Positions 10,927-14,542 of a stretch of DNA of 38,339 nt are shown here, piece by piece. This DNA comes from Maribacter sp. (GTDB taxonomy: Bacteria; Bacteroidota; Bacteroidia; Flavobacteriales; Flavobacteriaceae): contig JALHST010000098.1 of assembly GCA_022865355.1 (NCBI GenBank), positions 1-38,339 on the forward strand, read 5' to 3'. The position numbers and the translations under genes are program-made. Within the stretch, counting starts at the first letter, position 1; the number at the start of each line of letters is the position of its first letter. A model generated the notes under the pieces. The model was not told the DNA's origin. It worked only from the letters and a program-made list of their open reading frames with translations, and did not search any database.

Positions 10927-12294
10927 ATGTACGCAATACTAGATATAGAAACCACCGGCGGGAAATATAATGAAGAGGGTATCACCGAAATTGCCATTCA
11001 TAAATTCGATGGCCACAAGGTGGTTGATAAATTTATTAGCCTCATAAATCCTGAAAAAGAGATTCAACCCTTTGTTGTGAACCTTACAGGTATCAACAAT
11101 AAAATGCTCCAAACGGCACCGAAATTCCACGAAGTGGCCAAACGCATTGTTGAGATTACCCAGGATGCCGTCATCGTAGCACATAACGCACAATTCGATT
11201 ATCGAATTCTTCGTACCGAGTTTAGGCGGCTGGGCTACAACTACGAACGAAAAACACTATGTACCGTCGACCTTTCCAAAACATTGTTACCAGAGGCCGA
11301 ATCGTATAGCTTGGGAAAATTGGTGCGCTCCTTGGGGATTCCCGTAAGTGAGCGGCACCGGGCAAATGGGGATGCACTGGCTACCTTGAAACTTTTTAAG
11401 CTATTACTGACGAAAGATAGCGATAAATCGATTCTTAGAAAGGTGCTACGCAATGAGACCCATGGCGAACTTTCGGAACGGCAATTAGACATTGTTCAAC
11501 AAATGCCGTCTGAAACCGGCATGTATTATATGCACAATAAAGATGGGGAAATAATCTTTCTTGATAAGAGTTCCGATATCAAAAAACGCGTGAACCAGCA
11601 TTTTACAAAAAGTGGCGATCAGGCGCGACGGTTACAAAAAGAAACCAAAAAAGTTACTTTCGAAAGAACGGGCAACGAGTTGATCGCCATGTTGAAGGAA
11701 TACGAGGAACTTCGGAGAAATAAACCCAAATTCAACAATAAACCAAGCCCTAATTTATTTACCCACGCCCTTTATGAATCAGTCGATGAAAATGGGTATA
11801 TAAACCTTGCCATTGACAATTCGAATGGGAGAATCAACTATGTTACCACTTTCAATGGCGCACAAAGTGCTGCGAATTTTTTACACCTTATCAATACAGA
11901 ATTCAAACTGTGTGACCGATTGAACGGTCGCTCGAAAGCAATGGACCAATGCCCAAGATTCGACGCACAAGATTGTAATGGGGCCTGCCTACGTATAGAA
12001 GATCCCATCGAATACAATGCAAGGGTGAGCGCAGCACTGGGCAAGTATCACCTCAATAGAAAAAACATGCTCATCGTCGACAAGGGTCGCGAGATTGGCG
12101 AATATAGCGCCGTTTTGATCAAAAATGGCATCTTTAAAGGTCTTGGATTTTATGAACTTAACCATCAAATAAATAATATTCATATCTTAGAATCAATAAT
12201 TACCCCTATGAGAGGAGATGCCAATACGAAACATTTGATTGAATCGTATCTTAGAAAGAGAAAGGGCATCAAGATTCTGGAGTTAAATCATTGA
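10927..12294 (+). CDS. DnaQ-like 3'-5' exonuclease fused to a UvrC-like GIY-YIG module
   Basis: In this 455-residue protein, residues 1-165 form a DEDDh exonuclease domain with all catalytic residues: D6 and E8 in LDIETTGG, D91 in HNAQFDYRI, H144 and D149 in RHRANGDA. Residues about 194-270 resemble the UvrC/Cho GIY-YIG nuclease domain (GMYYMHNKDG, R221, E258, then KPKFN). A UvrC-like cysteine segment follows (C329, C342, C350, C354) with IEYNARVSAAL. This matches the known DnaQ-UvrC-type fusion, thought to act in DNA repair. The YVG half of the signature is FLD at 211-213, so the second nuclease may be inactive. It overlaps the next gene by four bases. Confidence 0.9.
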   Translation: MYAILDIETTGGKYNEEGITEIAIHKFDGHKVVDKFISLINPEKEIQPFVVNLTGINNKMLQTAPKFHEVAKRIVEITQDAVIVAHNAQFDYRILRTEFRRLGYNYERKTLCTVDLSKTLLPEAESYSLGKLVRSLGIPVSERHRANGDALATLKLFKLLLTKDSDKSILRKVLRNETHGELSERQLDIVQQMPSETGMYYMHNKDGEIIFLDKSSDIKKRVNQHFTKSGDQARRLQKETKKVTFERTGNELIAMLKEYEELRRNKPKFNNKPSPNLFTHALYESVDENGYINLAIDNSNGRINYVTTFNGAQSAANFLHLINTEFKLCDRLNGRSKAMDQCPRFDAQDCNGACLRIEDPIEYNARVSAALGKYHLNRKNMLIVDKGREIGEYSAVLIKNGIFKGLGFYELNHQINNIHILESIITPMRGDANTKHLIESYLRKRKGIKILELNH

Positions 12295-13136
12295 CCTTGG
12301 AAGACGATAAACCTAATAAAGGCTGGAAGCGAAACCTCCACGTAATTATTTACGGAACGCATACCCCTGCGGGAAAATTGTTTGATATTCTCCTCCTTCT
12401 GCTTATCCTGTACAGTGTCATCATCGTGATGCTGGAGAGTGTTCCTCGTATTGATATCAAGTATCACGGGTTTTTCAATATGTCCGAATGGGTGGTCACT
12501 ATCTTATTTTCGATTGAATATCTTTTGAGAATAATTTGCATAAAACGCCCGAGCAAATATATTTTTAGTTTTTTCGGTATCATAGACCTACTATCGACCA
12601 TACCGAAATATTTATCCTATTTATTTGTTGGCTCCCAGTATTTTACGGCATTTAGGGCCTTGAGACTGCTACGCGTTTTTAGGATTCTCAAACTAGTGCG
12701 ATTTGTCGGGGAATCGAATAATTTGGCCAGGGCCTTGAAGGGCAGTCGCACGAAAATATTTGTGTTCGTATTTTTTGTGCTTGTGGTTTCGGTACTTCTA
12801 GGTACTCTAATGTACCTTATCGAAGGTCCCGAACACGGCTTCAATAGCATTCCCCACAGTGTATATTGGACGATTGTTACCCTTACCACGGTGGGCTATG
12901 GAGATATCTCCCCAGAAACCCCCTTGGGGCAGTTCTTGGCTACGCTCATTATGATCATCGGTTACGGAATCATTGCGGTCCCTACGGGTATCGTTTCAGC
13001 GAAATATGCTACCTCTATCTTAAAAGAGAAGGATGCTGATGAAGGACGTTCCTGTCCGAACTGTGGAGCCGAGATATATCGATCGGATGCCCTGTATTGT
13101 CGGAAATGTGGTTTTGATTTAAGCGATGAAGCGTAA
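12291..13136 (+). CDS. Voltage-gated-type potassium channel with C-terminal zinc ribbon
   Basis: This 281-residue six-helix channel resembles Kv-type bacterial channels. S1 lies at about 30-50. An S4-like helix carries R122, R125, R128, R131, K134 and R137 at every third position. The pore has the potassium filter TTVGYGD at 199-205, followed by S6 (FLATLIMIIGYGIIAVPTGIVSA). After the last helix the protein ends in a treble-clef or zinc-ribbon motif, C255-C258 and C270-C273, in the cytoplasm. The start is TTG at 12291, giving a TTGA overlap with the previous stop, so translation is probably coupled. It overlaps miaA by 11 bases. The zinc ribbon may sense metal or redox state or assist assembly; this is inference. 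Confidence 0.9.
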   Translation: MTLEDDKPNKGWKRNLHVIIYGTHTPAGKLFDILLLLLILYSVIIVMLESVPRIDIKYHGFFNMSEWVVTILFSIEYLLRIICIKRPSKYIFSFFGIIDLLSTIPKYLSYLFVGSQYFTAFRALRLLRVFRILKLVRFVGESNNLARALKGSRTKIFVFVFFVLVVSVLLGTLMYLIEGPEHGFNSIPHSVYWTIVTLTTVGYGDISPETPLGQFLATLIMIIGYGIIAVPTGIVSAKYATSILKEKDADEGRSCPNCGAEIYRSDALYCRKCGFDLSDEA

Positions 13137-14055
13137 AAAAAAAACACTCATTTCGATTGTTGGTCCTACAGGAATTGGAAAGACTAAATTGGCCATAGCG
13201 ATTGCAGCGTATTTTAAAACTGAAATAATTTCGGCCGATTCCAGACAGTTCTATAAGGAAATGTACATCGGTACCGCCGTTCCGTCGCATCAGGAATTAA
13301 AAGCCGTCACGCATCATTTCGTTCAACATAAAAGTATTTTCGATAGCTATTCGGTCGGCGATTTTGAACGTGAGGCGATGTCAAAATTGATAACTCTTTT
13401 TAAAGAATATGATATCGTCGTCCTGGTCGGGGGAAGTGGACTCTACATCGATGCGCTCTTAAAAGGTTTGGATCGATTTCCTAAAATCGATCCAAAAATA
13501 CGTCGCGATTTGAATGAAATGCTTCGAACCAAAGGTATCGAAGCGTTGCAAGAGCAATTAAAAGTTTTAGATAACGACTATTATGCAAAAGTCGATATAC
13601 AAAATCCGCACCGATTAATTCGGGCTTTGGAAATCTGTATGGGCACAGGAAAACCCTACTCTAGTTTCCTCAATAAGGCACAAGTTAAAAGGCCCTTTCA
13701 AATGATAACCCTGGGGATTACGGCCCATCGGAAGATAATCTACGACCGTATCGAACAGCGGGTAGATGCCATGATGCAACAAGGATTGCTTGAGGAGGCG
13801 AAGGCCTTATTCAGTTATAGCGCCTTGAATGCCTTACAGACCGTGGGTTACAAAGAGTTATTCCGCCATCTGAATGGGGAATGGGATCTAGAAATTGCGG
13901 TTTCTGAAATAAAAAAAAACACAAGAAGGTTTGCCAAACGCCAATTGACCTGGTTCAAAAGAGACCCATCAATCATTTGGATAGACATTGAGACGAATAT
14001 GAAAGAAATAGTAACACAAATCAGCAAGTGGCTTGACAACCCTAAAGACAGCTAA
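13126..14055 (+). CDS. miaA: tRNA dimethylallyltransferase MiaA
   Basis: MiaA transfers a dimethylallyl group to N6 of A37 in tRNAs that read codons starting with U. The 309-residue sequence has the P-loop GPTGIGKTK at 13-21, the SADSRQFYK segment at 36-44, GGSGLYIDALLKG in the middle and NPHRLIRALEI. The C terminus carries RRFAKRQLTWFKRD, the usual tRNA-contacting region. Length is normal. It begins inside the channel gene (11-base overlap) and its end overlaps gntK by 23 bases, so these genes form one translationally coupled operon. A separate miaA promoter is unlikely. Confidence 0.97.
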   Translation: MKRKKKTLISIVGPTGIGKTKLAIAIAAYFKTEIISADSRQFYKEMYIGTAVPSHQELKAVTHHFVQHKSIFDSYSVGDFEREAMSKLITLFKEYDIVVLVGGSGLYIDALLKGLDRFPKIDPKIRRDLNEMLRTKGIEALQEQLKVLDNDYYAKVDIQNPHRLIRALEICMGTGKPYSSFLNKAQVKRPFQMITLGITAHRKIIYDRIEQRVDAMMQQGLLEEAKALFSYSALNALQTVGYKELFRHLNGEWDLEIAVSEIKKNTRRFAKRQLTWFKRDPSIIWIDIETNMKEIVTQISKWLDNPKDS

Positions 14056-14542
14056 GACCATACTATTTATTATGGGGGTTTCCGGTTCAGGTAAAACAAC
14101 CGTAGGCGCACTATTGGCGCAAAAACTGGGCATCCGTTTTTTTGATGGCGATGATTATCATTCCAAAAAAAATATTAGAAAAATGGCTTCGGGACAAGCC
14201 TTAACCGATGTGGACCGCCGGGATTGGCTTGAGCGTTTAAATGCGCTGGCAAGGGCCTACCAAAAAGAAGGTGCAGTAATCGTTTGTTCGGCCCTTAAAG
14301 AAAGCTATCGACAACTCCTATGCAAAGATATTGAGGAGAAGTGCCAATATGTGCTTTTATTGGGCACTTTTGAGGAGATCATGGACAGAATGCAAAAAAG
14401 AGTAGGCCACTTTATGCCCCCAGGCTTACTAAAGTCGCAATTCGCAACATTGGAATCCCCTAAAGAAGCCATTGTGGTCTCGATAAAAGAAACGCCCGAA
14501 GACATCGTCTCAGCAATTTTAGACGAACTTCACAAAAATTAA
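14033..14542 (+). CDS. gntK: Gluconokinase
   Basis: This 169-residue P-loop kinase phosphorylates D-gluconate to 6-phosphogluconate. It has Walker A GVSGSGKT (15-22), FDGDDYHSKKNIRKMASGQALTD (37-59), DRRDWLERL and CSALKESYRQLL, all strong GntK signatures. The TTG at 14033 is the likely start; an in-frame ATG at 14072 would begin directly at MGVSGSGKT and remove the first strand residues, which is less likely. It is the last gene of the DnaQ-GIY-YIG/channel/miaA operon and is followed at once by a terminator. No gluconate transporter or 6-phosphogluconate gene is adjacent. Confidence 0.93.
   Translation: MTTLKTAKTILFIMGVSGSGKTTVGALLAQKLGIRFFDGDDYHSKKNIRKMASGQALTDVDRRDWLERLNALARAYQKEGAVIVCSALKESYRQLLCKDIEEKCQYVLLLGTFEEIMDRMQKRVGHFMPPGLLKSQFATLESPKEAIVVSIKETPEDIVSAILDELHKN

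Follow-up and report, generated by a model that had tools for sequence, protein, structure and literature searches.

The window analysed here, a 38,339-nucleotide contig (JALHST010000098.1) of Maribacter sp., carries a gene for a voltage-gated-type potassium channel whose product ends in a four-cysteine motif and whose neighbours encode a nuclease and a tRNA-modification enzyme. The locus raises the question of whether this ending sets the channel apart from its group, which the initial annotation expected to end after S6 or in an RCK or cyclic-nucleotide domain, and whether the surrounding operon accounts for it. We consider it highly probable (roughly 85%) that the channel belongs, as an ordinary representative, to a widespread clade of bacterial voltage-gated-type K+ channels, with a tail that is itself ordinary and widespread, because PF00520 and PF13240 both match above their cut-offs and because of the conservation and distribution of these parts described below.

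The channel and its start codon

The channel gene most likely occupies positions 12297..13136 of the forward strand and encodes 279 residues, an assignment drawn from the open reading frame, its PF00520 match and a survey of start codons. Residue numbers given here follow the frame first annotated (12291-13136, forward strand; 281-residue product). Pfam PF00520 (Ion_trans) matches residues 29-240 with an E-value of 9.8e-36 and 123.6 bits against a curated cut-off of 25. The S4 voltage sensor lies in a predicted helix (residues 115-141) and carries six basic residues, one at every third position as in Kv-type channels: R122, R125, R128, R131, K134 and R137 (12654..12701, forward strand). An alignment of 43 sequences shows no change at the first five, and R137 is kept in at least 90% of them. 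The K+ selectivity filter TTVGYGD (T199-D205; 12885..12905, forward strand) is conserved in the same alignment. The channel is thus complete and of Kv type, as had been proposed.

Neither an RCK (TrkA_N) nor a cyclic-nucleotide-binding domain appears in the Pfam table for the channel at E-values up to 1, which rules out an RCK- or cyclic-nucleotide-gated K+ channel. An AlphaFold2 model built with the 43 aligned sequences contains helices S1-S6 (mean pLDDT 70.5, pTM 0.55); it is a single-chain model, and the tetramer and zinc lie outside what it can show. From what is known of the Kv fold, the expected assembly is a tetramer whose K+ pore opens when S4 moves.

The start of the gene was reconsidered using 55 of 80 family loci, those in which the match begins at residues 1-3. 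The codon aligned to residue 1 (TTG 12291) is a stop in 22 of these 55 homologues. Residue 3, which is TTG 12297 in the window and lies two bases past the stop of the upstream DnaQ-type gene, aligns with TTG (39 homologues), ATG (8) or GTG (2); 49 of the 55 offer no other start codon within codons 1-12. The first methionine of the window protein is residue 47, inside S1. Since residue 1 is often a stop and residue 3 is usually the only start codon available, the start is most likely TTG 12297, which replaces TTG 12291. The TTGA overlap with the DnaQ-GIY-YIG gene, claimed earlier, is therefore probably not used. Retention of TTG in 39 of 55 homologues means that a rare start codon has been kept across the family, possibly for weak translation.

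The zinc ribbon tail and its distribution

The C-terminal motif, C255-x2-C258-x11-C270-x2-C273-G274 (13053..13121, forward strand), is assigned as a zinc ribbon by Pfam, a whole-genome scan and conservation among homologues. PF13240 (Zn_Ribbon_1) matches residues 255-277 with 26.2 bits, barely above the curated cut-off of 25, so that the four-cysteine pattern noted initially does score as a ribbon. In the whole-genome scan the best PF13240 match of the entire genome is this tail, at the identical place. Conservation is far stronger than the marginal Pfam score: all four cysteines and G274 are invariant in 43 of 43 aligned sequences. Further conserved positions are Asp-Ala before the third cysteine, an aromatic residue immediately before it, a basic residue immediately after it, a glycine after the fourth cysteine and a leucine four residues past the fourth. 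Outside the Flavobacteriaceae, 80% of 36 rows have an additional histidine in the ribbon. Compared with solved structures, the 45-residue tail matched ribbons only weakly (ribosomal eL37, bL32 and eS31; E 0.02-1), and the two highest-ranking entries (E 6e-5 and 0.002) contain no matched stretch that passes alone; these matches do not inform the function of the tail.

Between S6 and the ribbon lies a linker (residues 241-252; 13011..13046, forward strand) that varies in length and sequence among relatives. In the AlphaFold2 model its pLDDT is below 50 at residues 244-251, and the ribbon block follows with values of 71-75 and short strands. The spacing between the two CxxC pairs is 11 residues in 138 of 141 four-cysteine sequences and 10 in the other 3. 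Between the PTG(I/L) motif of S6 and the first cysteine the distance is 14-28 residues, measurable in 138 of these 141 sequences. One member of the family (L182, genome G106) has an unusually long, proline-rich linker, beyond this range, before an intact ribbon.

Within the Flavobacteriaceae, a protein search at E 1e-20 matched the channel in 179 of 199 genomes and returned no match in the other 20. All of the matches listed for the family extend to residue 274 or beyond, except that in G106, where the tail is present past its longer linker. The C-x2-C...C-x2-C pattern occurs in 110 of 110 close-homologue frames, the window's own among them; this set, like the 109 loci used for gene neighbours, includes same-species records from two collections (e.g. 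L003 and L036). The question of whether close homologues conserve the four cysteines, raised when the tail was first noticed, is thereby answered.

Across a phylum sample, the channel matched in 134 of 296 genomes at E 1e-15. Two classes of match are apparent. The strong class aligns as far as residues 274-280, apart from some shorter matches; the weak class mostly ends around residues 237-264, with a few reaching 267-274. We examined 40 loci of the strong class (36 outside Flavobacteriaceae, 4 within it), picked by hand to spread over families and thus non-random; strong rows with shorter alignments (e.g. G357, G466, G218 and G213) were left out. The strict four-cysteine pattern is present in 36 of the 40. 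The remaining four (L130, L148, L134 and L137) keep the second CxxC pair and have an altered first ligand pair, so on sequence grounds a complete Cys4 site appears not to be indispensable everywhere. The altered pairs read C-C, C-x-C or C-x2-H, L134 being the histidine variant.

The tail was first described as a departure from the channel's group, and its presence on nearly all channels of that group was named beforehand as the observation that would count against this view. That is what we found. The counts in close (110/110) and divergent (36/40) relatives also reject a recent or local fusion, and the compared sequences show that channels of this lineage normally end in the zinc ribbon.

The tail extends beyond the phylum. 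Ten of 19 plasmid records with a match were examined, and seven of the ten encode the four-cysteine tail (Deinococcus, Thiodictyon, Acetoanaerobium, Pseudomonas aeruginosa, Klebsiella, Salmonella and Bacteroides). The Aristaeella plasmid row has no cysteine pair within the stretch examined. A further Salmonella copy (L181) is without the second pair, and no channel gene is among the annotations listed for it. In the Klebsiella and Salmonella plasmid records (L176, L177 and L181) the channel is flanked by oppF on one side and an HI1450-like/cls pair on the other.

A tree computed without the tail, from 84 of 168 non-identical channel sequences with Flavobacteriaceae thinned, divides into two groups, each with support of 100/100; its root is a drawing aid only, and several rows are on long branches. 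The first group has 63 rows, 57 with a full ribbon and 6 with variants, and includes Deinococcota, Gammaproteobacteria and Clostridia. The Burkholderia row (L178), the last of the ten plasmid records examined, has one cysteine pair only, yet falls inside this group. The second group has 21 rows, of which 12 are without a ribbon and 9 have half of one. Because the tail-less tree brings the ribbon rows together, the tail is placed by sequence in a channel lineage that spans phyla, through age or transfer.

Operon neighbours

Upstream of the channel lies a gene for a DnaQ-type exonuclease with a GIY-YIG/UvrC-like part (10927..12294, forward strand; RNase_T E 1.7e-32, with UvrC-type matches). Downstream are miaA, encoding tRNA dimethylallyltransferase (13126..14055, forward strand; TIGR00174 E 1.6e-78), and a GntK-type gluconokinase gene (14033..14542, forward strand; TIGR01313 E 4.6e-46). 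The channel and miaA share 11 bases (13126-13136), exactly as claimed. In the Flavobacteriaceae, miaA is downstream of the channel in 109 of 109 loci (L003-L111), and a 200-base rule for adjacency holds in 108 of them; in the exception (L006) miaA is also downstream, in a stop-to-stop frame that overlaps the channel by 286 bases. The adjacency of channel and miaA, which the initial annotation had singled out for checking, is thus kept across the family. The DnaQ-GIY-YIG gene is directly upstream in 97 of the 109 loci, further off in 3 and not seen in 9, and gntK lies nearby in 77. These counts miss neighbours where the flanks are short, as in L003-L031 and some other family loci. Four further Flavobacteriaceae loci have both miaA and the DnaQ gene (4/4).

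These neighbours invite the idea, hinted at initially, that the channel works as part of the nuclease/tRNA-modification operon, for example in a stress-response unit. The constancy of miaA (108/109) and the DnaQ-GIY-YIG gene (97/109, and both in the four further loci) speaks for it. Against it, neither gene has a match at E 1e-8 near the channel in any of the 36 loci of other families, where flanks are about 6 kb and shorter in some (e.g. L134, L137 and L141). Other lineages have unrelated neighbours, among them oppF and cls (Klebsiella, Salmonella) and a urea transporter (Pseudomonas). We regard a functional operon of this kind as very improbable. A tie between the tail and the miaA operon is likewise rejected (0/36 loci outside the family), and the operon is no explanation for the tail, because in this sample the neighbours are confined to Flavobacteriaceae and the tail is wider. 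In the sample, the grouping with miaA and DnaQ-GIY-YIG is thus a feature of Flavobacteriaceae, distinct from the tail, and the tRNA-modification and nuclease genes are most likely housekeeping genes that are merely co-transcribed with the channel.

Possible roles of the ribbon and comparison with known channels

The four cysteines of each subunit would bind one zinc ion, and the zinc-bound ribbon would fold as a small cytosolic knob that the flexible linker tethers to S6. We tentatively favour, at just short of even odds, the view that this knob acts as a tethered docking or sensing module, contacting a partner protein, a lipid head group or another ribbon, rather than as a rigid gating ring aligned with S6. 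The linker varies freely in length and sequence while the ribbon spacing is nearly fixed, which suggests a tether; linker variation is the single line of evidence used here. The same mobility would suit a zinc or redox switch, in which oxidation or metal loss of the cysteines alters gating, and the cytosolic cysteines are almost absolutely conserved. Structural zinc ribbons show equally strong cysteine conservation, however, and a histidine ligand variant exists (L134), so a switch of this kind seems unlikely to us.

The weak class, made up of Kv-type paralogues of a sister group, bears on a further alternative. We sampled 39 weak-class paralogues, nearly all of the weak rows listed, with the short rows G300 and G248 left out. 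None has the four-cysteine ribbon; 20 have one CPxC(G)-type pair, by itself, at the C-terminal end (9/20 and 11/19 in the two batches; L156, L162-L167, L170, L171, L183-L187, L193, L195-L197, L199 and L200), and 19 have no pair. With one pair per subunit, a four-cysteine zinc site would need a second subunit, and the half-ribbons may therefore form an inter-subunit zinc site in the tetramer. This would fit an account in which the whole ribbons serve to assemble the tetramer or to hold its subunits in contact, zinc helping to build or lock it. Kv channels are tetrameric and their short cytosolic ends often make oligomer contacts. Kv1-4 carry an N-terminal T1 domain, which in animal Kv2-4 contains zinc; the likeness to T1 would be one of role, not of descent. 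Yet in the whole ribbon all four ligands lie within one chain and zinc requires no partner, the linker varies widely in length, and 19 of the 39 sister-group members are without any cysteine pair. An assembly device is unlikely on balance. We would give little credence to the broader conjecture that a large, hitherto undescribed bacterial Kv branch could be regulated through cytosolic zinc-cysteine modules, with whole ribbons in the one clade and CPxC(G) half-ribbons in its sister that would have to pair between subunits to hold zinc and so act as a zinc/thiol gating switch. The sister group with its half-ribbons lends itself to comparison. The tail is also a tractable subject: a module of about 25 residues on K+ channels, conserved across phyla and removable by simple truncation.

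By sequence, the solved structures nearest to the channel are Kv1.3 (E 4.9e-25) and Kv4.2, with prokaryotic Kv channels ranking lower. Animal Kv1-Kv4 and KCNQ channels have the voltage sensor and GYGD filter in common with the window channel; they differ at the C-terminus, where their matches stop at or before query residue 259 and the zinc ribbon is unmatched. The prokaryotic structures 6uwm and 2a0l (both 'voltage-gated potassium channel') and 1orq ('potassium channel', which we take to be KvAP) match from residue 38 with E-values of 5e-17 to 2e-16 and share the six-helix plan of voltage sensor and pore. Their alignments end at query residues 239-247, again leaving the ribbon unmatched.

The tail belongs to the PF13240 family and differs from its members generally in being fused to a channel, in its conserved D-A-x-(F/Y)-C-(K/R)-x-C-G signature and in the extra histidine found outside Flavobacteriaceae. 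All parts of the channel are already in Pfam, and its relatives are publicly annotated as 'ion transporter'. We found no description of a zinc-ribbon Kv channel in the open-licence papers searched, judged mostly by their titles and the beginnings of abstracts; one may be in print elsewhere. A report on the SHOCT domain places it at the C-terminal end of one PF00520 protein and three PF07885 proteins, and its account of these proteins mentions no zinc ribbon (PMC3581485).

A further comparison is with four proteins annotated 'ion transporter': WP_003083179.1 (P. aeruginosa), WP_002910080.1 (K. pneumoniae), UUX07985.1 (S. enterica) and WP_055279155.1 (B. finegoldii). The Pseudomonas aeruginosa gene is presumably PA1496. 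PA1496 has been listed as a putative K+ channel with slightly changed expression (PMC6591848). All four proteins fall in the same tree group as the window channel, with 39-50% identity to it; their neighbouring genes differ, and their C-terminal four-cysteine ribbon is the same. What looked like one flavobacterium's curiosity is how channels of this clade ordinarily end, as far afield as Bacteroides, Pseudomonas, Klebsiella and Salmonella.
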